Shown in pieces: positions 37,206 to 49,265 of a stretch of 49,265 bases of DNA. The notes under the pieces were generated by a model, which was not told the origin of the DNA, did not search any database, and saw nothing but the letters and a program-made list of their open reading frames with translations. Each line of letters opens with the position of its first letter. Position 1 is the stretch's first letter. This stretch comes from Bradyrhizobium sp. NAS96.2 (lineage in GTDB: Bacteria > Pseudomonadota > Alphaproteobacteria > Rhizobiales > Xanthobacteraceae). The translations under genes were made by a program, and so were the position numbers. Location: positions 1 to 49,265 of the forward strand of contig NZ_LGHK01000008.1 of assembly GCF_001908235.1 (NCBI RefSeq), written 5' to 3'.

Positions 37206-38315
37206 CTATGCCGAACGCGTATCGGGTGAGCTCGAGCCGTCGTCTTCCAGCTTGCGCTGCTCAGACGCGACAACCGGGCCCCGCTCCGCCTCTCTGCGCA
37301 AGCGAATCTGACGGCCGGCGAGATAGTCGAGCTGCCCGCGATCCTCGTTCCGCAGTTCAACGATTGCGGCCGCAACATCCGGAGGAACGCATTTGTCCGG
37401 CCCCCAAATATAGCGTGTCTCTATTGCCTCACACAGCGTCGACGCAACCGAAAAGGTACGACCATCAGTGGTTGCCCCAACCGCAAATATCCGGAAATCT
37501 CCTACGACCGACCACGCCTTGCTTTGGTCGGCCCACATGACGCCTCGAACAGGGGTCCTGCGTGCGACGATACACAGATCGCCTTCCAGGTTGGCCTTCT
37601 CGTCGACAAACCTCTCGTCATCGGTGAAAAAGATCACCTGCATTGTATTTGCAGGGCATCCCATCATGCCAAAGCTGATCGAAAATTCTCCTCGCTTCGA
37701 ACTGGGATCGCCCTCGAGGAAGTCCGCGATCAGGCGCGGCACACGATGCAACACCTCGTTGTCGGGATTAACGCCCGCACGCGCGTGAATTTCCGAGCTC
37801 GATTGCTGATCCTGCAACGTTTCGACCATGTATTTCACGACCCGAAACGCCTCCCCGACCGAAGAACCAGAGAGAAGCCGCTCATAGAACGCGACAGCAC
37901 CGCCGCGGGCCGCGCGGTTGGTGATGGGCGCGGTGGTGCCGATCGCCATCCCGACGCTGCGCGTCAGTTGCTGAGCAATCGTTTTGGAGTCGCAGGCATT
38001 CAAGTAGATCAATCTGGGTGGAGCTCCTGGCGGCAGGAAAGCAATGAGCGCGTCAGCACTCAATGCCACCTTCTTGCCGACCTCGTTGCTGAGCGATAGC
38101 TGCTCGGCCGACCCGTGAGCGGAAATATGCAGGATGTCCGGCCGGTGCTTCGCCAATTCCGCCGGCAAATCCTCAGCAGGCAGACCGGGGAGGAAAGTAA
38201 AAGACACAGGGTCCCCAGGCGCTTCCGCGAAGCGCCGCTGCAACTCTGTCACCTCTCGTTCAAGATTGAGCGTCACTCCGTCGGACGGGTTGGACGCCAC
38301 GAACAATACTTTCAA
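37206..38315 (-). CDS. CHAT-domain (caspase-like) protease
   Basis: Clan CD cysteine peptidase of the CHAT family, 369 residues. The N-terminal domain begins K-V-L-F-V-A-S-N-P and has the catalytic dyad His67 (H-I-S-A-H-G) and Cys108 (L-I-Y-L-N-A-C-D-S), followed by the usual G-T-T-A-P-I and A-F-Y-E-R-L-L-S-G elements. The C-terminal about 190 residues are not recognised. There is no TPR or NTPase fused, unlike Csx29 or the STAND-linked forms. The start is TTG at 38315, supported by GAGG six bases upstream. CHAT proteases in bacteria commonly act in immunity by cutting a partner toxin. Second in a four-gene operon. Confidence 0.88.
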   Translation of the reverse strand: MKVLFVASNPSDGVTLNLEREVTELQRRFAEAPGDPVSFTFLPGLPAEDLPAELAKHRPDILHISAHGSAEQLSLSNEVGKKVALSADALIAFLPPGAPPRLIYLNACDSKTIAQQLTRSVGMAIGTTAPITNRAARGGAVAFYERLLSGSSVGEAFRVVKYMVETLQDQQSSSEIHARAGVNPDNEVLHRVPRLIADFLEGDPSSKRGEFSISFGMMGCPANTMQVIFFTDDERFVDEKANLEGDLCIVARRTPVRGVMWADQSKAWSVVGDFRIFAVGATTDGRTFSVASTLCEAIETRYIWGPDKCVPPDVAAAIVELRNEDRGQLDYLAGRQIRLRREAERGPVVASEQRKLEDDGSSSPDTRSA

Positions 38316-38329
38316 CAGTAGCCTCGGAT

Positions 38330-38818
38330 TTAAGGTTTAGCCTTCAGTGCATTCCCCCAAGCGGAACACACTTCTGCAATCGTTGGTGCGACAATGATCT
38401 TGACCAGGAGGGCAGCGACCACAGCCGCGACCGCTGGTGACAGGCCAAACGCGGTCACCAGCGCGCCCGCCAACAGTGCGATGCCGCCGCCCTCCTTCGA
38501 GAAGATCGCGCTCAACATCTCATCTCTCAATTTGCGATCCTGGTCGCCGGGCGAGCAGCAGAAATCGTGTGCGGCCTGTGAGCATCGGAAGAAAATCCGC
38601 TTCCCGAGTTCGACGGCAGCTCCGCGCTCGAGATCGTCGGGGTCGGATTCGGTGCGAAATCGATCGTCGGGGTCGCCAATTCCGGCAGCCGGCGTCGACA
38701 CGCGAGATGCCAAGAGAGCGTACAGATCACTTTCAGATTTGGTGACCAAGGAGGCCACTTGATGCGCCTCGCCCTTATGCTGTTCGACAAAGGAACGCAG
38801 TAAGTCGTCGCTCGACAT
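38330..38818 (-). CDS. CHAT operon gene 1, small membrane protein
   Basis: Protein of 162 residues, first in the CHAT operon. The first 105 residues are soluble and charged with a Cys cluster (F-R-C-S and F-C-C-S). Residues 112-147 form a long hydrophobic stretch broken by a Gly-Leu-Ser-Pro turn (I-A-L-L-A-G-A-L-V-T-A-F, then A-A-V-V-A-A-L-L-V-K-I-I), suited to a helical hairpin in the membrane. GAGG lies six bases before ATG 38818. A soluble head followed by a membrane hairpin, next to a protease gene, suggests a pore or membrane effector released by cleavage. This is inference only; a simple membrane anchor is equally possible. Confidence 0.75.
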   Translation of the reverse strand: MSSDDLLRSFVEQHKGEAHQVASLVTKSESDLYALLASRVSTPAAGIGDPDDRFRTESDPDDLERGAAVELGKRIFFRCSQAAHDFCCSPGDQDRKLRDEMLSAIFSKEGGGIALLAGALVTAFGLSPAVAAVVAALLVKIIVAPTIAEVCSAWGNALKAKP

Positions 38819-39029
38819 GGTAGACCTCAAAATTGCTGTGCCAAACGGCTGGAATATACATTTTAAGGTTGCGTCAAGCTACTCGAACTATCTCGTCCAC
38901 GCAACTGCGGATCTGCGCCAAAAGCGGACCGGCGCGCGATAGTGATTGCTTGCTAGTTGAGCCCGGATTGTTCCAGGCCGCTTGAGCGCGCACCGGCCAA
39001 TCCTGCCAGCTGGCGACCGGCCTTCCGAT

Positions 39030-40134: not shown

Positions 40135-41415
40135 TTAACCGACCATGCTTGCGAGGGCTTCGGGCGCGTCGACAAATGCGTAGGGATTGAGGAATTGCCG
40201 GCGCCACAAAAAATGGCGGTCGACTTCGCTCAGCGTAGCCTCGTCGCACACCTGCTTCCATCGCTGCTTGATAGTCTTGATTTGCGCGGTCGCGATATGG
40301 ATCGCGTCCTCCTCGTTGAGCAAGAATACGGGGGCAGCTTTTAGGCAAAGCGCGATCTGACTAGAACGCTCCTGCCCAATGATCAGCATGGACTGTGATG
40401 CCTCGCCACCAGTCCGGTTCTGCGGACAGATGTCGTAGGCGGGTGTCAGCGTAAGCGCCGTCCCGTTCCAGAATGCAGCATGGTTCCTCGCGTGATCGTC
40501 GGTGTTGCCGGACAGGATGTTGAACACAAGTCTGCCGAACAGCTCCTTCAGGGTCTCCTTGGGCGAGGTGAAGCGGTGACGGATCACAGTGGCGAGCTGT
40601 TCGTAGCTCGCATAGCGCGCCATCATTTCGTCGAGCTCGAGCAGCGTGAGCGCGGAAACCATCGCCTTTCGGCGCCACCCGTCTGCGACTTTCTCGCGGT
40701 CGAAGCGCTCGATGAGCAGAACGTCTTTTCCGGCCGCGCGCTTCAAGGCAACTGGAGCTGCGGTGAGACCGATCATGGCAGCGAGGCGCATGGCGACGAA
40801 TTCCGCCTTCACCACACCGTACAGGTCATTCTGGGACGAAAACTTTGCCACGAATTTCTTGGTCCCGGAGGTAATCATGGCTTTCGGCCGCGCACCGCCG
40901 ATGGAGCTGCCATGAAGCAACGCGCGGTCGAGTTCGAGCGAAAGTGGCAAGCCCTTTTCGACAAACGCGGCGGCATTCAGGAGTTCATCAAGAGATGCTT
41001 CCGTACCCTCACGCGGCACGTAGCTTGACGCCGACGCCTGAAAATCAAGCGCTCCGATGCGGTCCGAGCCAGACTCCAGAAGATAGGTCAGTTCGTCGAG
41101 GCTGCCGGGATCGACGTCTTTCCCGCCTGCGCCGAACTTGCGATTGATGATGATGCGGCGGCCCCACGCGTCGGGCGCGGCATCACGGATGCAACTGGGC
41201 ATGTTGAGACCGTTCAAGAGCGGGAGGACACCGCTGCGCAGCGGGAGTTCGGGCTCGTAGAGCGGAATGGCGTTGTTGCGGCGCAGGTAGCTCTGTCCGT
41301 AGTTGTAGACGAGTTGATTGCCGCTGGCCTGCAGGAGCCCCGCAACGACGGGCTGCGTGCTGTCCGGCAGCCAGACCCACACATAGGCCTGGGTGGGCGT
41401 TTGCTCAGAAGTCAT
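40135..41415 (-). CDS. hipA: HipA-type toxin kinase
   Basis: Ser/Thr kinase toxin of the HipA family, 426 residues. The N-terminal beta domain (about 1-100) includes L-P-L-L-N-G-L-N-M-P and D-A-W-G-R-R. S-S-I-G-G-A-R-P-K is the loop whose Ser is autophosphorylated in E. coli HipA. The catalytic loop N-T-D-D-H-A-R-N-H and the metal motif Y-D-I-C-P are both intact. The E. coli protein phosphorylates glutamyl-tRNA synthetase and halts growth; the target here is unknown. The start codon (41415, or the adjacent ATG at 41418) lies inside the end of the antitoxin gene, so translation is coupled. Confidence 0.9.
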   Translation of the reverse strand: MTSEQTPTQAYVWVWLPDSTQPVVAGLLQASGNQLVYNYGQSYLRRNNAIPLYEPELPLRSGVLPLLNGLNMPSCIRDAAPDAWGRRIIINRKFGAGGKDVDPGSLDELTYLLESGSDRIGALDFQASASSYVPREGTEASLDELLNAAAFVEKGLPLSLELDRALLHGSSIGGARPKAMITSGTKKFVAKFSSQNDLYGVVKAEFVAMRLAAMIGLTAAPVALKRAAGKDVLLIERFDREKVADGWRRKAMVSALTLLELDEMMARYASYEQLATVIRHRFTSPKETLKELFGRLVFNILSGNTDDHARNHAAFWNGTALTLTPAYDICPQNRTGGEASQSMLIIGQERSSQIALCLKAAPVFLLNEEDAIHIATAQIKTIKQRWKQVCDEATLSEVDRHFLWRRQFLNPYAFVDAPEALASMVG

Positions 41416-41749
41416 CATTGGGCTCGGTCCGGTGGCTGCGGATCGCCTTGGGCAGCAAGGCCAATTTTTGGCGGTGGGTTTCAACCTCGCGGGACATCGT
41501 GGCCGGCCCGGCGTCGAACAGCTGCACACCGACGATCACCGCGGCCTCAAATACCGAACCGATTGCACATCCCGGGTCGCCGGCTTCGATCCTCTGCACC
41601 AGGCCGCGCGAGACCCCTGCCCGTTCCGCCAATGTGGCAACGGTCATGTGACGCTCGATGCGCCCTTCGCGGATCAGCTGACCGAGCCGGGTTGCCGCTT
41701 CGGTGGCGTAGGCGGAATGGGGATGCGTAACCTTGGGCATGCGGTCCAT
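41405..41749 (-). CDS. hipB: HipB-type antitoxin, XRE-family repressor
   Basis: Antitoxin and autorepressor of the HipA partner, 114 residues. The XRE-type helix-turn-helix lies at about 20-72 (L-G-Q-L-I-R-E-G-R, T-V-A-T-L-A-E-R-A-G-V-S-R-G-L-V-Q-R-I-E-A-G-D). A C-terminal tail of about 40 residues would contact HipA. The protein starts at ATG 41749; an ATG at 41740 is also possible. It overlaps hipA at its 3' end. The upstream 41750-41862 is AT-rich with a 10-bp palindrome ATTTATAAAT at 41778-41787, a possible operator. Confidence 0.88.
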   Translation of the reverse strand: MDRMPKVTHPHSAYATEAATRLGQLIREGRIERHMTVATLAERAGVSRGLVQRIEAGDPGCAIGSVFEAAVIVGVQLFDAGPATMSREVETHRQKLALLPKAIRSHRTEPNDDF

Positions 41750-41862: not shown

Positions 41863-42546
41863 ATGCAATCAGAGCCAGCTGCATTGGGAGGCCGCCTCGA
41901 CGCTTCAAAGCTCCTCCTGGAAAGCCAACGAGCTGGGCAGATTTCTGGTGATAGCCAGTCCCGTTTCTTGATGAACGCCCGCAAATCACTTAGCGCAGAA
42001 TCTGCGCGTCGAGTTCTGCACCTGCCATGCACAGACTATCCACAGGTCTTTCCAATGGCTTCCGCTCGCGAAATCCATGCGGTCAGCAGCGATCCGGTCA
42101 AGGTCCGCAATCTTGCAGTTAGTTTGCTAGCCATGGCCAAGGTCGCTGAAAGCATCTTCAGCGAATGGGAATTGATATTTTTGCGTGACCTTGCCGACCA
42201 GTCGGCAAAAGTCATCGCACTCAAGCCCAAGGAACGCAAAGACCTGAAGTTCAGTGGTCGGCGGGCTGACGTGCTACTCGCCTTACGCGACTTTCGCCTG
42301 ACCACGCGACAGGCGGAGAAGCTATTTGAAATTCGCGATAGCGTTACGTCCCACAGTGACATCGGTGGTATCAGCGTTCGCAATCTGATCAACCGCTGTT
42401 ATGAGGCACGAAGCGAGCTGCTAGATGGTGACTACGAATTTGTTGAGAGGCTCTGGAAGAGCGGCGTGTCGGAGCTTCAGACCCCTGCTCTGATGCGGCT
42501 CAAGAGATGCAGCATCCAACTTGGCGAGCTCGAGTCGTATGTGTGA
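41863..42546 (+). CDS. Uncharacterised protein divergent from hipBA
   Basis: Protein of up to 227 residues, not recognised. Mostly helical; the middle (V-K-V-R-N-L-A-V-S-L-L-A-M-A-K-V-A) and the later L-T-T-R-Q-A-E-K-L-F-E-I-R segment could be a helix-turn-helix-like pair, but this is weak. No signal peptide or membrane helix. An internal ATG at 42057 would remove the first 65 residues, which are less well structured. It sits outside the inverted repeat that begins at 42741, and shares an AT-rich promoter region with hipB. A role in controlling the toxin locus is possible from position only. Confidence 0.6.
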   Translation: MQSEPAALGGRLDASKLLLESQRAGQISGDSQSRFLMNARKSLSAESARRVLHLPCTDYPQVFPMASAREIHAVSSDPVKVRNLAVSLLAMAKVAESIFSEWELIFLRDLADQSAKVIALKPKERKDLKFSGRRADVLLALRDFRLTTRQAEKLFEIRDSVTSHSDIGGISVRNLINRCYEARSELLDGDYEFVERLWKSGVSELQTPALMRLKRCSIQLGELESYV

Positions 42547-42740
42547 ATAGCGACGCGCGCATAAGCAGTCGCCAAAGGGAGTCTCGGCGTTCCGGAGACG
42601 CTACCCGCTCTCATCGTGCAGGTCCGATCCGCGGTCAATCGCTAATCGCGGCTGCCCCCCTCTACGCCCTTCCGCCAATCGCCGAGCTTTGCCCACTGGA
42701 GGAACCAAGCGCAAAACTGAGGGCTGAAAGTCATAAAAAA

Positions 42741-42864
42741 CCGTAAATCCTGGGTCGGTCGTGGTCTCCGCTCTTGCTTAGCGCAGTTGTCCAAGTACAA
42801 TCTGATGTAGAGCACTGATTTGATTTCGCCCCTTTGTCGAAATTATACGATAACACCTGTTTAT
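42741..42864 (+). repeat. 124-bp inverted repeat, left copy
   Basis: Identical base for base to the reverse complement of 49142-49265; identity stops at 42865. It may extend further left, since the other copy is cut by the window end. It ends 42 bases before the SIR2-STAND start codon. It also contains TTGT-N6-ACAA (42787-42800), a possible operator. Confidence 0.9.
42820..42848 (+). promoter_or_regulatory. Promoter in left inverted repeat
   Basis: A -35-like TTGATT (42820-42825) and -10-like TTATAC (42843-42848) are separated by 17 bases. Transcription would begin near 42855, about 50 bases before the SIR2-STAND ATG. Confidence 0.45.
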
Positions 42865-42906
42865 GTGCACGAGGCACGGCTGGATCAGCGAGCCAAATAG
42901 CTGGTC

Positions 42907-45900
42907 ATGACCCGCCAATCCGAAACTCCTGAAGCTCTCGCGCTGCTCGGGCGATTGATCGCCGACCGTGCAACAAACCCGGCGCGGCATCTCGCGCGGA
43001 TCTGCGTGTTCCTTGGTGCGGGGGCCGACCTGAGCTCCGGCGGACTTACGTTCTGGGAGCTGAAGCGACAAGCGCTGGTAGAGTTCGGCAAAAGGCGGCT
43101 ATTCGATGTCACCCCATCGACGGATATCGAAGCTGAGTTCGAGGCCCTGTTCGCCCAGCAAGCACCGGACGACAAGGCTCTTCTGATCGACTGGTTGTTC
43201 CATCGGATGCAGCCACTCCAACCGTCCGACGCCTACAAGCTGCTTGTCTTGTTGGCCGAAAGTGGCGGCATCGACGCCTTCGTCACGACGAACTTTGACG
43301 GGATGCTTGAGAAGGCTCAGCAAGAGCTCGGACGGGACCTGTTCCAGATCTACGCCCCGGGCATCGCTCGGCCATACCTGCTTGCCAACGAGCGCTTCCA
43401 GCCGCCTCGAAAGCCCTACCTCAAACTGCACGGCGACATTGCGTCGCGATCACTGATGTTTCTTACAACGGAGGAGATCCAGGCGCCGCCCTACGATCCG
43501 TCAGTGCTCGAGCTGCTTGGCGAGATCTTGCGCACGCACGACCTTGTCTTCGTCGGGTATGGCGGCAACGATCCGGCACTCGCCGAGATCATTGCCGACG
43601 CCGTCAGCGGCACCAGCAACCGGATATTCTGGTGCGGTCCAACTCGTCCGGCGCCGGAGTCGCCCTTGGTCAAGCTGCTCGGGTCGCGCATCCGTCAAGT
43701 GTGCGGAAAGTTCGACGATCTGATGATGGAGATTGCTCGTCCGGTTCTTGAGCGGCCATCCCTGCAAATGATCGAGCCCACCTATCTTCGCTGCCTTTTC
43801 GAGTGGCGCCTCGATTACTGCAATCGGGAATATCTTCAGGCCTACGGCGTGCGCGACGGCACCTCCCTTGTCGAAGCTTTTGCACGACGCCCGCGGGCTG
43901 AGGACCAGATTCGCTTGTTTCTGCGGTCAAATCGCGTCCTGACGCTAGTATCGGGACCGTCGGGATTCGGAAAGACGACGCTCGGGATACGGCTGCACTC
44001 CTCATGGGACGGCGATCCAGCGAGCCGATTGTTGCTCATCCGGGCGCGCGCACTCCAAGGCATCGGCGACATTGAGCAATATGTCGCCGAGCAGCTGGGA
44101 GGCCTTGGATCGCGCGGACCGTTCTCGTTGTTCCGCTTCGAAAGATGGCTCGCCGAAAGTCAGCAGCGGCTGGTTCTCTACATCGACGGCATCAACGAGT
44201 TCAGTCCTGATTTGACGAAATGCGTACAGCTGTTTCGCAACATATTGCGGTTTTGCTATTTTCTTCCGGAGACCGACAGCGCGATCCGTGTGATCGCGAC
44301 AATCCGGCAGGAGACGTGGAACGCGATGTTGTCGCACATCGACCTGCTGCAGCTGCAGAAAGCGCTCTGGACTGAAACAGCCGCGGATCAGGGCGTCGGC
44401 ACCATTGCCTGCGGTGAGTTCACTGATGATGAGCTCCGGGATGCCGTGGCTCGGTTGCACGATCGCGGCTACGCGACGGTCGATACCGAGCAGTTGTCGC
44501 CAACGGTTTTCAGTCAGCTTCATGATCCCTATCTGTTTGGGGCCGTCGCCGACGCTTCCCACCGCGGCATGTCGGCAATACCGGGCGCTCGCATCTATCA
44601 ACAGGCGCTCGACGAGAAGCTGGTCCGGCGCGGCTCGCTGATCGACACGGCAACGCTCAAGGACGTACTCGCCAGCCTCGCTCTCGGCACGTTGACGCGA
44701 CAGCAGGACAGGTTTCGTGAAATTGACATCGAGCCTCCGACCTTGCGGGGCGAGATCATTCGTTTGATGAAAGACCTCCACGTTCTCGTCGATGCCGGCG
44801 ACGGCTACCTGCAGTTCGACCACGATCGGACTCTGGAATTCTTCCTTGCGCTCGGTCTCGGATCGGGGCGTGGTCCGAGCCTTGAGACGGTGGACGACCT
44901 CCTGCGCTACCTGAAGTCGTTCCGGACCCAGGCAAAGCCGATCGCGGCGGCGCGGCTATATTTCGAGCTGCTGCCGCAGAAGCGGTTTGCAACGATCGAT
45001 AAGATCCTTCGCTCGCTTGATGAACGGGTTGGTCAGTACGGGCTTGCCGACCGCGAAATGCTGTTTGGCTTCGGTCGCGAAGTACTTTCAGATATGGCTG
45101 AGCAGGCGGATCCCGTCGCGCTTCAATATCTCTTGGATCTGTCCAGCGCCGCCGGCCAAGGCAGCATTGGACCTAGTCTGCTTCGAACGGCGGTGCAGTT
45201 TGGCGCGGGATTGGCCGTATCAGATGCGATCCAAGTTCTTACCAATATATCGGACGGTGTTTCCTCGCCAGTCGCCATAGAGGCCAACATCTACGCAACC
45301 GACCGGCTTGTCAAATTGTACCTTGAGGCCGGCTGTCCACCCGCACTACTGACTAAGGACGAACCCTACGCTGCATTCTTCGCAGACGAAAGGTGTCCAG
45401 GCTGGCAGCGGCTCGGACGGCTACTGGGCTTTGCTGCCCATCTTGGCCCCGACAACACTCATCCCAAAGAGTATGCTGGAACCTTGCGCTCGCTCGATGT
45501 GTCGCTTGATATGCTGCTCAAAGATCAAGCGTGGACCGGAGCCGACGCTGATGCCATTGCCGATCATATCCGGAAATACTGCGACCGGCTGATCTTTAAC
45601 GCTCCGCTCGAGGCGCTGGAGCAGTTCTTCGCTCGCCAGGATCGCACCGAGTTTACCGCTATCCTGGCGCGACTGGGTGCAGGCGAGGTCCTTACCGCAG
45701 AACAATTCGACGGACTTCAGCCATATACCCAGACCCTCAATACCGAGATTGAGTATCATCTCTGCCATTTGCTTCTCGCGATATCGAGCTTCAACGACTT
45801 CCGTCTCACGCTTGATTTGGTCAAATCTCGACTGTCCGCAATCTCGCGGGCTTCGTCGCCGATCGAGATTGATTTCCTGCATGCAGCGCTGGTGTATTTG

Positions 45901-46635
45901 CACGTTTTGCACAACACACCTTACGACATCGACGTGTTCGCCGAATACGAAGCGAGGATCCTGAAAGATTGGCCTGATGTGCTGCTCTTCAGGCCGGGAC
46001 TTGAACGTGGCGAGCGACGCGGCTTTCAGGATCTATTCGATCGAATCTTCGAAGATGGATTTGGTGTGATCTATCCCTACGGGGTGTTGTTACCTTCGTT
46101 GCGGCGGCAAAGGCATCTCTACGGTGACTATCTGCGCGAGATGCGCTCCGAAACCGAAAGTCCGCTGCCGCTTTACACGCAGTACTTGGAGACTTTTCTC
46201 GCCGCGGGGAGGATCGAGGAAGCTATCCAGTTGCTGCAGGCGCTCGCCGGAGTCATAGTGCCGTGGCCGACCGAGGGCCTGTTAGCGCTGCGCAGCGTCA
46301 TCGGGCACCCGGATCCCCGGATTCGACGGGCGGTGGTGCGGGTTCTCGCGGAATCCTTCAATCGGCATCCAGCTGAGACGCTTTCCTTTCTGCGGAGCAG
46401 TGGCGCGGCCGTCAGCGAGGAAGATCTGATCGAGATCAAGATCCGGCAGGATGCGCACATTGGACGTCGACAGATCAACGAAGAGGAATGGGCTCGCATT
46501 GGTCATTTCCTGCTCTCGCGTTCGGGAGGACTCAGCCTCCTGATTGAGTGCACGATGGAGTTGCTGCAGGCCAGATCGCTCGACGAGGGGGTGCGGGCGG
46601 TGCTTTACAGGCTCGGGCTGCTGGCGGCACGATAG
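42907..46635 (+). CDS. SIR2-STAND antiviral-type NTPase (Avs5-like)
   Basis: Large cytoplasmic protein of 1242 residues in three parts. A SIR2-type NADase domain occupies about 30-250: F-L-G-A-G-A-D at 35-41, T-T-N-F-D with Asn129, K-L-H-G-D with His175, and V-G-Y-G-G-N-D. A STAND/NACHT-like ATPase follows, with Walker A G-P-S-G-F-G-K-T-T at 350-358 and Walker B L-V-L-Y-I-D-G-I-N-E-F at about 422-432. From about 600 to the end are helical repeats of the type that recognise a trigger. This layout matches the SIR2-STAND class of AVAST (Avs5) and related systems, in which binding of a phage protein triggers oligomerisation and NAD+ loss. Specific trigger unknown. Confidence 0.88.
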   Translation: MTRQSETPEALALLGRLIADRATNPARHLARICVFLGAGADLSSGGLTFWELKRQALVEFGKRRLFDVTPSTDIEAEFEALFAQQAPDDKALLIDWLFHRMQPLQPSDAYKLLVLLAESGGIDAFVTTNFDGMLEKAQQELGRDLFQIYAPGIARPYLLANERFQPPRKPYLKLHGDIASRSLMFLTTEEIQAPPYDPSVLELLGEILRTHDLVFVGYGGNDPALAEIIADAVSGTSNRIFWCGPTRPAPESPLVKLLGSRIRQVCGKFDDLMMEIARPVLERPSLQMIEPTYLRCLFEWRLDYCNREYLQAYGVRDGTSLVEAFARRPRAEDQIRLFLRSNRVLTLVSGPSGFGKTTLGIRLHSSWDGDPASRLLLIRARALQGIGDIEQYVAEQLGGLGSRGPFSLFRFERWLAESQQRLVLYIDGINEFSPDLTKCVQLFRNILRFCYFLPETDSAIRVIATIRQETWNAMLSHIDLLQLQKALWTETAADQGVGTIACGEFTDDELRDAVARLHDRGYATVDTEQLSPTVFSQLHDPYLFGAVADASHRGMSAIPGARIYQQALDEKLVRRGSLIDTATLKDVLASLALGTLTRQQDRFREIDIEPPTLRGEIIRLMKDLHVLVDAGDGYLQFDHDRTLEFFLALGLGSGRGPSLETVDDLLRYLKSFRTQAKPIAAARLYFELLPQKRFATIDKILRSLDERVGQYGLADREMLFGFGREVLSDMAEQADPVALQYLLDLSSAAGQGSIGPSLLRTAVQFGAGLAVSDAIQVLTNISDGVSSPVAIEANIYATDRLVKLYLEAGCPPALLTKDEPYAAFFADERCPGWQRLGRLLGFAAHLGPDNTHPKEYAGTLRSLDVSLDMLLKDQAWTGADADAIADHIRKYCDRLIFNAPLEALEQFFARQDRTEFTAILARLGAGEVLTAEQFDGLQPYTQTLNTEIEYHLCHLLLAISSFNDFRLTLDLVKSRLSAISRASSPIEIDFLHAALVYLHVLHNTPYDIDVFAEYEARILKDWPDVLLFRPGLERGERRGFQDLFDRIFEDGFGVIYPYGVLLPSLRRQRHLYGDYLREMRSETESPLPLYTQYLETFLAAGRIEEAIQLLQALAGVIVPWPTEGLLALRSVIGHPDPRIRRAVVRVLAESFNRHPAETLSFLRSSGAAVSEEDLIEIKIRQDAHIGRRQINEEEWARIGHFLLSRSGGLSLLIECTMELLQARSLDEGVRAVLYRLGLLAAR

Positions 46636-48284
46636 AATTCACCGTCGAGATACAGACCGTCGAGACCCATGCCGAGAAACGCATCGATTGCGTCAAGGGG
46701 AGTCTCAACAATGGGTTCGCCGCGGCGGTTGAACGACGTGTTCAACAAGACCGCACGCCCGGTCAGCGCGTCGAATTCTCGGAGTAGATTGGCGAGCAGC
46801 GCATCGCTTTCGGGCCCGATTAGCTGAACCCTCGCTGTACGGTCAACGTGAACCACCGCCGGCGCTTCGTTGAGACAACGCTCGCGCACGCGTGCCACCC
46901 TAAGCATGTACGGGTCGGCGCATCGTCGGTCGAAGAAGTAGTCATCGTAGCGATCCTCGAGAATGATCGGAGCCAGGGGCCGAAACGGCTCCCGCTTCTT
47001 GATCATGCGATTGATCCGTTCTTTGGTCGAAATTCGCAGAGGATCCGCAATGATACTTCGACCACCCAGGGCCCGCGGTCCGATTTCGGAGCCTCCATTG
47101 AACAGGCCGATCACGTCGCCAGCGGCGAGGATTCGCGCAAGATCTTGAGCGGTTCGAACCGATGGATCGAGGCTCAGCCGGGGGTAGAACTGCTGAACTG
47201 CCGCCGCCCGTTCCGTTGCTGCATAGGTCCGTCCCGGCCGCGCGAGAAGAGGATCGACTTTTCTGCTGCGGAACGTCAACTGCGGCGGCCGTTTTCCTTT
47301 TTCGAATTCATGGAGCCAGAGGGCGCCGAAGCCCAATCCGGCATCTCCGCTGTGCGGCGCGATCGAGAACGGAACGTCCATCGTCGTGTTCTCGATCAGA
47401 TGTGAATTCGTCACGGTGTTGAGCGCACAGCCGCCCGCGATGCAGAGGTAATCGACGGCCCTATTGCTAAAAAACGTGAGTGAACGAAGCGCCGTCTCGT
47501 TGATGACCGCTTGAACGCTGGCCGCAAGATCTGCCTTCGCGCCGAACAGATTGGGCGACTGCAGGAGCAGAGTCTCAATTGCCCGCGGCAAATCAGGATT
47601 GTCGAGAGCGCAGCGAAAGAAATCGTCGGGATCGTCCCGATACCGAATGAACTGATTGAGGATCCCGGTATGACGCGGCTCGCCGTAGGACGCAAGCCCC
47701 ATGGTTTTGCCCGCCTCGAGCGAGTCATACCCCAATTCGGCGGTCACGAGTTCGTACAGCAGCCCGATGGAATCCGTGACGACGATCGGGAAATCGTCAC
47801 CTTCGACGGTCGCGCTCCCCGATGTCTGACCAAGAGTTTGGTGCCCCTCCGAACCAAAGAGAAAGAACGAGAAGGTTTCACGCTTAGCGCGGACCTGGTC
47901 TTCGATCGGACCAACGATCGATCCAAAACCGTCATAGACCAGTACTCCGGCCTTTGAACCGGGGGGTAGCATCATGTAGGCCGAAGCTGCATGACACAGA
48001 TGGTGGGGGAAAAGCCGAAGGTTCCTGCCCCGAAACTCCGTACGCACCTTGGTCGGCAAAGTATCGCTCGAAACGATCGCCGCCACGTCGGACAACGCGA
48101 TCCCCTCAGCGGCCAAACAATACTCGATTGCCAGCTGTACGGGACTTTCGAACCAATGCGTCATCCCGTACTTCCGTCGCGAAAGCCGCTCCTGTTCGAT
48201 GGCAACACGGATATCGCCGTCGCGCATTAATGCCGCAGAGAAGTCGTGGTCGGAACCACCGAGGCCAAGGACCCATTCGGACAT
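46605..48284 (-). CDS. NodU/CmcH/TobZ-family carbamoyltransferase
   Basis: O-carbamoyltransferase of 559 residues from ATG 48284. The N-terminal Kae1-like domain starts L-G-L-G-G-S-D-H-D-F-S-A-A-L; metal-binding His95 and His98 lie in H-H-L-C-H-A-A-S-A-Y, followed by L-V-Y-D-G-F-G, with A-G-G-C-A-L-N further on. The C-terminal YrdC-like domain has G-S-E-I-G-P-R-A-L-G-G-R-S-I. Together these use carbamoyl phosphate and ATP via a carbamoyl-adenylate to modify a hydroxyl group. Known substrates are Nod factors, cephems, tobramycin and, in phages, 5-hydroxymethylcytosine. No nod genes are near. It starts 13 bases after the oxygenase stop; its 3' end overlaps the SIR2-STAND gene by 31 bases. Confidence 0.9.
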   Translation of the reverse strand: MSEWVLGLGGSDHDFSAALMRDGDIRVAIEQERLSRRKYGMTHWFESPVQLAIEYCLAAEGIALSDVAAIVSSDTLPTKVRTEFRGRNLRLFPHHLCHAASAYMMLPPGSKAGVLVYDGFGSIVGPIEDQVRAKRETFSFFLFGSEGHQTLGQTSGSATVEGDDFPIVVTDSIGLLYELVTAELGYDSLEAGKTMGLASYGEPRHTGILNQFIRYRDDPDDFFRCALDNPDLPRAIETLLLQSPNLFGAKADLAASVQAVINETALRSLTFFSNRAVDYLCIAGGCALNTVTNSHLIENTTMDVPFSIAPHSGDAGLGFGALWLHEFEKGKRPPQLTFRSRKVDPLLARPGRTYAATERAAAVQQFYPRLSLDPSVRTAQDLARILAAGDVIGLFNGGSEIGPRALGGRSIIADPLRISTKERINRMIKKREPFRPLAPIILEDRYDDYFFDRRCADPYMLRVARVRERCLNEAPAVVHVDRTARVQLIGPESDALLANLLREFDALTGRAVLLNTSFNRRGEPIVETPLDAIDAFLGMGLDGLYLDGEFYRAASSPSL

Positions 48285-48297
48285 GATACTCGGGTCC

Positions 48298-49125
48298 TTA
48301 TCCTTCCAATCCGAACCGGACCGGATTTGCTCTGACATATCCTCCGATATCGACATGGCGATTGGTGTCACCGACAATCCACGCGCGGCAGAGATCAGGC
48401 GCGAGGTCGGCGAAAAACAGCACGCTAACCCGTTCTTGACAGTCTGTGGGTGGTCGGACCTGGTGGAACAGCGGCCGCAACCTGCCGTCTGTCATCAACG
48501 CGGCTGCGCTCCCCAGCATCGCTATTGCGCAGTCGCGCGCTGGCGCCACGGCGAGATAATCGCCGCTCGGCAACCGAACCTCCAAGCCGGACGCGGTCGC
48601 GTAGCCGAGCGTGAGGAAATGGCCGTCTTCATGCTCTTCATTGATGAATGAGGACCGGACCTCGCTTGGGCGGGAGTAGTTGATCTGCAGCGTCGACCAC
48701 CGGTGCAGGCCACCGGTCAGAACCTGCTCGAAGGACCGTTGGGTAACGTGGCGGGCGAGCGATACAATCAAGGTTTCTGCAACCCGCTCGAGCTGCGCAA
48801 ACGCCCCGGCACAGGCGCGATTGAGATCGTTGGCCATCGGATCATCGAAGATGTGCGTCGATGAGGCCGCAGTTACCGAGAAGGTCTCCATGTCATCGGG
48901 GCGATCGGACGCCCGGGAATATTCGATGCCATACGGGCGATACCCGAGGCTTGAAGCAATCTGGCAGCTGTCCTTTATGGCCTGTGGCGACCGAAAGAAC
49001 TTGATCGCGGCCGTTACGACATCCTCAATTGCTGCCGTTTCCGGACAGGTAAGTTGAACCTCGGCCCAGGCTTCGTTTGCGATGCGTTCAACGACGGCTT
49101 CTGAAGCCCAAATGGTCTTGGCCAT
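48298..49125 (-). CDS. IPNS-like 2-oxoglutarate/Fe(II) oxygenase
   Basis: Oxygenase of 275 residues with the jelly-roll core of the isopenicillin-N-synthase-like group. The iron ligands are His165 and Asp167 in H-E-D-G-H-F-L-T-L, and His221 (L-F-H-Q-V-R); Arg232 with Ser234 in R-V-S-V-L-F-F is the expected 2-oxoglutarate clamp. The N-terminal half is diverged and helical, and the protein is shorter than plant or fungal homologues (about 320-360). It would hydroxylate a substrate using O2 and 2-oxoglutarate. It is first on the right arm, 17 bases from the inverted repeat, and is followed by the carbamoyltransferase, so a hydroxylate-then-carbamoylate pathway is likely. Substrate unknown. Confidence 0.82.
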   Translation of the reverse strand: MAKTIWASEAVVERIANEAWAEVQLTCPETAAIEDVVTAAIKFFRSPQAIKDSCQIASSLGYRPYGIEYSRASDRPDDMETFSVTAASSTHIFDDPMANDLNRACAGAFAQLERVAETLIVSLARHVTQRSFEQVLTGGLHRWSTLQINYSRPSEVRSSFINEEHEDGHFLTLGYATASGLEVRLPSGDYLAVAPARDCAIAMLGSAAALMTDGRLRPLFHQVRPPTDCQERVSVLFFADLAPDLCRAWIVGDTNRHVDIGGYVRANPVRFGLEG

Positions 49126-49141
49126 TGACCGTTGGCTTCCT

Positions 49142-49265
49142 ATAAACAGGTGTTATCGTATAATTTCGACAAAGGGGCGAAATCAAATCAGTGCTCTACA
49201 TCAGATTGTACTTGGACAACTGCGCTAAGCAAGAGCGGAGACCACGACCGACCCAGGATTTACGG
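49142..49265 (-). repeat. 124-bp inverted repeat, right copy
   Basis: Perfect reverse complement of 42741-42864, ending with the last base of the window. Its true outer limit is therefore unknown. It lies 16 bases before the oxygenase start codon. Confidence 0.9.
49158..49186 (-). promoter_or_regulatory. Promoter in right inverted repeat
   Basis: The mirror image of 42820-42848: TTGATT and TTATAC with a 17-base spacer, facing left. Transcription would begin near 49151, about 26 bases before the oxygenase ATG. Confidence 0.45.

Follow-up and report, generated by a model that had tools for sequence, protein, structure and literature searches.

The right-hand end of a 49,265-nucleotide contig of Bradyrhizobium sp. 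NAS96.2 (NZ_LGHK01000008.1; this whole stretch, the complete contig C390, is referred to below as the window) carries a cassette in which an exact inverted repeat encloses exactly three genes, every one reading inward. These encode a SIR2-STAND protein, a carbamoyltransferase (CT) and a 2-oxoglutarate (2OG)-Fe(II) oxygenase (OX). The cassette is rare, and its recurrence in other genomes supports the view that the three genes form one unit, within which OX is an exchangeable allele that has moved between cassettes. As a tentative interpretation, OX and CT may make a small carbamate that gates SIR2-STAND as an NAD+-depleting abortive-infection protein. The features of the cassette are as follows.

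42741..42864, plus strand: left arm of the inverted repeat (124/124 match to the other arm)
42907..46635, plus strand: SIR2-STAND protein of 1242 amino acids with a SIR2_2 domain, a NACHT/AAA-like NTPase and C-terminal helical repeats (Pfam, conserved residues, structure model)
46605..48284, minus strand: CT, an O-carbamoyltransferase of the TobZ/NodU family, 559 amino acids, in a frame open to 48377 (PF02543/PF16861, relatives)
48298..49125, minus strand: OX, a 2OG-Fe(II) oxygenase of 275 amino acids, the exchanged allele (PF03171, identity comparison, trees)
49142..49265, minus strand: right arm of the inverted repeat, truncated by the contig end (124/124 match to the left arm)

The cassette and its mirrored arms

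The left arm is the reverse complement of the right arm at 124 of 124 bases, a match far beyond chance, and the two are spaced 6277 bp apart. The arrangement described in a first-pass annotation of this DNA, with identical repeats around inward-reading SIR2-STAND, CT and OX genes, was thus recovered in full. Because the right arm coincides with the end of the contig, the arms are at least 124 bp long. A search of the 8.93-Mb assembly of this strain (some small contigs masked) with positions 42600–43000 returned these two arm copies and no others. The start of CT is most likely the ATG at 48284, 13 bp past the OX stop codon, because database copies of CT are about 559 amino acids long.

The trio was found in the same convergent order in three genomes: that of the window, B. 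embrapense SEMIA 6208 (G384) and a third member of the genus (G273). The tail-to-tail overlap of the SIR2-STAND and CT genes is 31 bp in the first two and 4 bp in G273. SIR2-STAND was present in 3 of 391 genomes of the family and 3 of 257 of the genus, and all three of its genomes also have OX and CT adjacent in this order. OX was somewhat more widespread (4/391 and 7/265), and its further genomes (G437, G438, G450 and G532; 32–36% identity) had no CT or SIR2-STAND relative within the 19 kb examined around each. Among 398 genomes of the phylum, a draw that did not include G273 or G384, the window's own genome was the sole match. The lowest identities among copies of the trio were 49% for SIR2-STAND, 56% for CT and 37% for OX. 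Bradyrhizobium sp. USDA 4451 is likely a fourth carrier, judging from matches to OX (80%), SIR2-STAND (90%) and CT (87%), each listed with an 8206511-bp contig.

The first-pass annotation had argued that the three genes are one functional unit, and that this view would fall if they never co-occurred elsewhere. That two further members of the genus have all three together, in the same layout and at minimum identities of 37–56%, removes that objection and supports the claim. The one other flank that is readable, contig C20 of B. embrapense, bears genes unlike those of the window. Its statement that no described system has this composition also held, as literature searches turned up no system combining an oxygenase, a carbamoyltransferase and SIR2-STAND.

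Linkage was also apparent in protein database matches, which were sorted by longest contig (88 matches for SIR2-STAND, 120 listed of 1416 for CT and 42 for OX). Among the CT matches listed, 37 exact contig sizes were common to SIR2-STAND and CT, out of 86 and 117 distinct sizes, whereas a chance control by jitter (2000 runs) gave a mean of 1.7 and a maximum of 6. The contig sizes of OX had 5 in common with SIR2-STAND and 12 with the listed CT matches.

The B. embrapense assembly gives independent evidence for the arms. Its cassette contig (C25, letter for letter NZ_LFIP02000025.1) is 6305 bp long and contains the three genes and little besides; each of its ends starts with one shared 15-bp sequence, the final 15 bp of the arm, and C20 terminates precisely at the arm's inner edge. 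The B. embrapense arm is identical to that of the window at 85 of 96 bases and is single in the assembly, as expected if identical arms were collapsed. Weak similarity to the B. embrapense flank extends outward from the left arm of the window to about 42645 (3/1000 shuffles as good). The G273 cassette is a 6333-bp piece flanked on both sides by 10-N gaps, but nothing resembling the arm is common to its ends, and searching that genome with the arm of the window gave no match. G273 therefore backs the breaks at the cassette ends and not the arm sequence. Its scaffold (L039, 8231–10120) sets this gap-bounded piece beside pieces of methyl-accepting chemotaxis receptor genes, so the true chromosomal site is uncertain.

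Contigs close to cassette size are common among the matches: 20 of 88 for SIR2-STAND, and 23 among the 120 listed for CT, lie on contigs of 6280–6560 bp, against 8 and 8 on contigs of 5000–6279 bp and 2 and 6 on contigs of 6561–8000 bp. This peak fits identical arms in other cassettes, whose terminal repeats would cause the assembly breaks. Such arms would explain why the cassette often sits alone on its own contig, and hence would be elusive to gene-neighbourhood searches.

An assembly chimera was considered and rejected, since two further genomes from the genus contain the trio, with assembly breaks at both ends of the cassette there too. Folding back at the contig end is a very improbable source of the repeat: the right arm does end exactly with the contig, and the left contig end overlaps contig C37 by 103 bp, so terminal overlaps occur elsewhere in the assembly, but in the independent B. 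embrapense assembly the breaks to the left and right of the cassette both fall at this arm, which also answers the artefact concern raised by the first-pass annotation, G273 has its gaps on both sides, and cassette-size contigs accumulate in sources labelled lgn, jgi, ena and ncbi.

The arms likely represent the same promoter/operator placed twice and reading inward, because the shared sequence lies near both gene starts, is AT-rich and contains a perfect palindrome confined to the arms. The arm sequence ends 42 bp before the start of SIR2-STAND and 16 bp before that of OX, and has a GC content of 0.46 compared to 0.59 in the surroundings. The palindrome (ATTTCG-N9-CGAAAT at 42823) occurs within the window in the two arms only, and also in the B. 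embrapense arm. A candidate promoter, TTGATT-18-TATACG, was read by eye at 42820. With the same promoter/operator at each end, the sensor and the enzyme pair would be made together. Concerted evolution is suggested by the perfect match of the two window arms, given that the window and B. embrapense arms differ from each other at 11 of 96 bases; a single genome offers both arms for this comparison.

The sensor protein and the enzyme pair

The SIR2_2 domain was detected by Pfam in all 40 relatives of SIR2-STAND. Residues N129 and D131 are kept in 40/40, H175 in 39/40 and the Walker lysine in 40/40; together with the family assignment, these conserved NADase and NTPase residues agree with the identity given to the protein in the first-pass annotation. 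Residues 641–1242 were modelled as entirely helical, with a predicted local distance difference test (pLDDT) score of 90.1. Mean pairwise column identity was 0.538 over the SIR2 domain (1–290), 0.436 over residues 701–1000, the most variable region, and 0.536 over residues 1001–1242. By family, SIR2-STAND is predicted to hydrolyse NAD+, as the SIR2-STAND protein Avs5 does when triggered by infection, according to PMC12931631. PADLOC matches of the 40 relatives included no Avs5 model (the library's holding of one was not checked) and weak Avs2 matches in 8/40.

CT contains both domains of its family (Carbam_trans_N, E 1.2e-30; Carbam_trans_C, E 1.4e-57) and its solved relatives are GdmN, decarbamoylnovobiocin carbamoyltransferase and TobZ. 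The HHxCH motif, which we take to be the metal-site histidine motif of carbamoyltransferases, is kept in 41/41 sequences, as is R-x-L-G-x-R, in which G438 and R440 are invariant. In phages, 5-hydroxymethylcytosine is modified by a carbamoyltransferase of this family, and DNA-modifying enzymes are reported to differ at G421 and R423 in TobZ numbering, the phage enzyme reading RALCNTT (PMC8670742). With CT residues mapped to TobZ from spacing, neither position is changed in any of the 41 CT sequences. Viral relatives among the matches listed were 26–35% identical to CT. Overall, CT looks like the natural-product or small-molecule carbamoyltransferases rather than the phage cytosine enzyme. Further genes of the family, with 32–50% identity in matched stretches, lie on contigs C179, C71, C63 and C135 of the same genome; the family is thus common there, and the cassette copy alone has these partners in view.

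The iron site and 2OG-binding arginine of OX (HxD...H...R) are present in 41/41 sequences. From the families of the two enzymes, OX is predicted to hydroxylate a C-H, and CT to carbamoylate that hydroxyl using carbamoyl phosphate and ATP. Hydroxylation first and carbamoylation second is the standard logic for this order of enzymes, and the likely product is a small, hydroxylated, carbamoylated molecule.

Exchange of the oxygenase and possible functions

A comparison of the window with B. embrapense in 150-bp steps gave DNA identities of 83–98% across SIR2-STAND and CT, 48–72% across OX and 100% over 7 arm bases at the end. In 30-bp steps, the drop begins at the CT start/OX stop. Protein identities follow the same pattern (SIR2-STAND 94.4%, CT 93.7%, OX 57.3%), while those to USDA 4451 are 89.7%, 86.6% and 80.4%, respectively. 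The B. embrapense OX is closer to those of two assemblies labelled lgn (70.1% and 73.5%). In trees built under LG+G4 from 9 SIR2-STAND, 10 CT and 11 OX rows, the window grouped with B. embrapense for SIR2-STAND and CT and with USDA 4451 for OX. Approximately unbiased (AU) tests rejected a grouping of the window with USDA 4451 for SIR2-STAND (p 0.0041) and CT (p 0.0044), and with B. embrapense for OX (p 1e-5); the contrast between trees had been noticed before testing, hence these p values are to be read as descriptive. The comparisons are most simply explained by replacement of an OX allele in the interval from the CT start to the arm.

Of the functions considered, a guard circuit fits best because OX was exchanged while the sensor and CT stayed in place, as would be expected of an enzyme exposed to phage. 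OX and CT would work constantly, and their product would hold SIR2-STAND off. Infection, for example through a phage protein acting on OX, would remove the product and release the NADase; NAD+ would then be destroyed and the cell would stop. The direction of control, with the product keeping the sensor off, is the weakest element of this proposal. Its most complete form, in which a carbamate restrains a STAND NADase, phage interference with the exposed and swapped OX lifts the brake, and concertedly evolving promoter arms tie the unit together and permit OX exchange, is rather less probable than gating as such. The product suggested in the first-pass annotation, something that belongs with the sensor such as a self mark, a ligand or an antiphage compound, is a candidate, and so is a role of the locus in phage defence.

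Several observations weigh against the guard circuit and the architecture on which it draws. Exchange of OX with SIR2-STAND unchanged also fits a product that SIR2-STAND does not read, and the helical repeats of the sensor domain are unspecific. The fold of OX cannot separate a small molecule from a nucleobase as substrate, as its matches include thymine 7-hydroxylase and AdaV. A consensus promoter scan of 42560–42960 found no inward site and one that faces outward. One genome alone displays both arms complete, and just 2 of 42 OX matches are on cassette-size contigs, with many on short ones.

Alternatively, the product could act as a second messenger: OX and CT would act on a substrate born of or gated by infection, and the carbamoylated product would switch SIR2-STAND on. 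The same conserved residues and co-occurrence would speak for this account, and enzyme-made activators are used by both Thoeris and CBASS. The C-terminal residues 1001–1242 of SIR2-STAND are as conserved as its SIR2 domain, as a fixed ligand requires, but the middle of the C-terminal region (701–1000) is the most variable part of the protein. Moreover, with OX replaced by one of 57% identity while SIR2-STAND is still 94% identical, the product would have had to remain unchanged, and we regard this account as rather unlikely.

A less probable alternative is a non-autonomous transposable element with the arms as its termini, in which sensor and enzymes travel together without joint function. The patchy distribution, the identical arms, the different genes beside the B. 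embrapense copy and the isolation of the B. embrapense and G273 copies between assembly breaks would all suit mobile cargo. On the other hand, there is no transposase gene between the arms, just two arm copies were found in the assembly, some small contigs of which were masked, and the trio stays together at 37–49% identity, which is unexpected without linked function. No empty insertion site was found, and the right flank of the window is absent from the contig.

It is doubtful that host DNA or RNA receives a self mark from OX and CT, with SIR2-STAND attacking cells whose nucleic acid is unmarked. The phage 5-hydroxymethylcytosine enzyme described in PMC8670742 offers a precedent within the family, and the structure matches of OX include thymine 7-hydroxylase as well as a nucleotide halogenase. 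Nevertheless, CT keeps R-x-L-G-x-R at the positions that are changed in the DNA-modifying enzymes of that source, on the spacing-based mapping, and the cassette is without a nuclease, methylase or thymidylate synthase. Lower still in probability is an antiphage compound, whereby the carbamate is directly harmful to phages and SIR2-STAND provides an independent back-up: the solved relatives of CT decorate antibiotics, but no further biosynthetic or export gene lies between the arms, and two tailoring enzymes would need a scaffold supplied by the cell.

Genomic setting and relation to known systems

Within the genus, relatives of OX neighbour TIR, caspase and DUF499/HEPN genes, a setting that is supportive of a defence role but not proof. 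In G450 (L049, C83; 5642–10069 and 14663–15772), a 32% OX relative lies among ThsB-TIR-like, caspase, TIR_2 and CAP12/Pycsar-TIR genes, possibly a second defence setting of this oxygenase family. In G438 (L047, C1; 9042–16672), a 36% relative accompanies a tyrosine integrase, an acetyltransferase-like open reading frame (ORF), a 326-amino-acid ORF and a DUF499/HEPN_Swt1 gene. This ORF set is repeated in G532 (L046), matched by length and start, and G437 (L048) has its integrase, acetyltransferase-like, 326-amino-acid and OX ORFs.

To the left of the cassette in the window are HipA/HipB-like, S1/P1 nuclease and CHAT genes. A 369-amino-acid CHAT-domain protein beside a 166-amino-acid protein without Pfam match (37206–38830) is possibly a further protease-type conflict pair. 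A HipA-like gene with an overlapping helix-turn-helix gene, resembling a toxin-antitoxin pair, adjoins the cassette (40135–41749), and directly left of the left arm (41863–42546) is a gene for a 227-amino-acid protein without Pfam match, with DNA relatives in G351 (74%) and G314 (68%).

The component parts of the cassette are of known kinds; what appears to be new is how they are combined, together with the mirrored arms and an oxygenase that has been swapped. If the proposed gating is correct, the pairing of a STAND sensor with a two-step enzyme pair adds oxidation plus carbamoylation to immune chemistry, the cassette is a defined place to seek a new signalling or guard molecule, and the sharply bounded OX exchange is a natural experiment on phage range.

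Compared to known systems, CT has both family domains and the conserved metal-site histidines in common with TobZ, GdmN and the decarbamoylnovobiocin enzyme; unlike theirs, its gene is outside an antibiotic gene cluster and lies tail to tail with that for SIR2-STAND. The phage 5-hydroxymethylcytosine carbamoyltransferase (PMC8670742) belongs to the same family and follows the same logic of carbamoylating a hydroxyl, but CT retains R-x-L-G-x-R, and neither a thymidylate synthase nor a dCMP hydroxymethylase accompanies it.

Solved chains such as 8jkz, presumably DSR2, have a similar SIR2 domain (profile match to residues 57–289), but the match ends with that domain, where the cassette protein continues into its STAND NTPase and helical repeats. 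Thoeris consists of the TIR-domain ThsB and the SIR2-SLOG ThsA; the match of ThsA to SIR2-STAND covers residues 32–230 only (E 1e-4), and no TIR gene is present in the cassette. An enzyme-made molecule controlling an effector would be common to Thoeris, CBASS and the cassette if our reading is right, but in place of a TIR or cyclase gene the cassette has an oxygenase and a carbamoyltransferase. The closest parallel in domain order is Avs5 (AVAST type 5), which shares the N-terminal SIR2 effector, central STAND NTPase and C-terminal repeat sensor, along with the NAD+ hydrolysis on infection that is predicted for the cassette protein (PMC12931631). The STAND NADase Avs5 directly senses a phage protein, such as JADA, whereas the SIR2-STAND gene of the cassette has OX and CT as partners, all three enclosed by identical arms.

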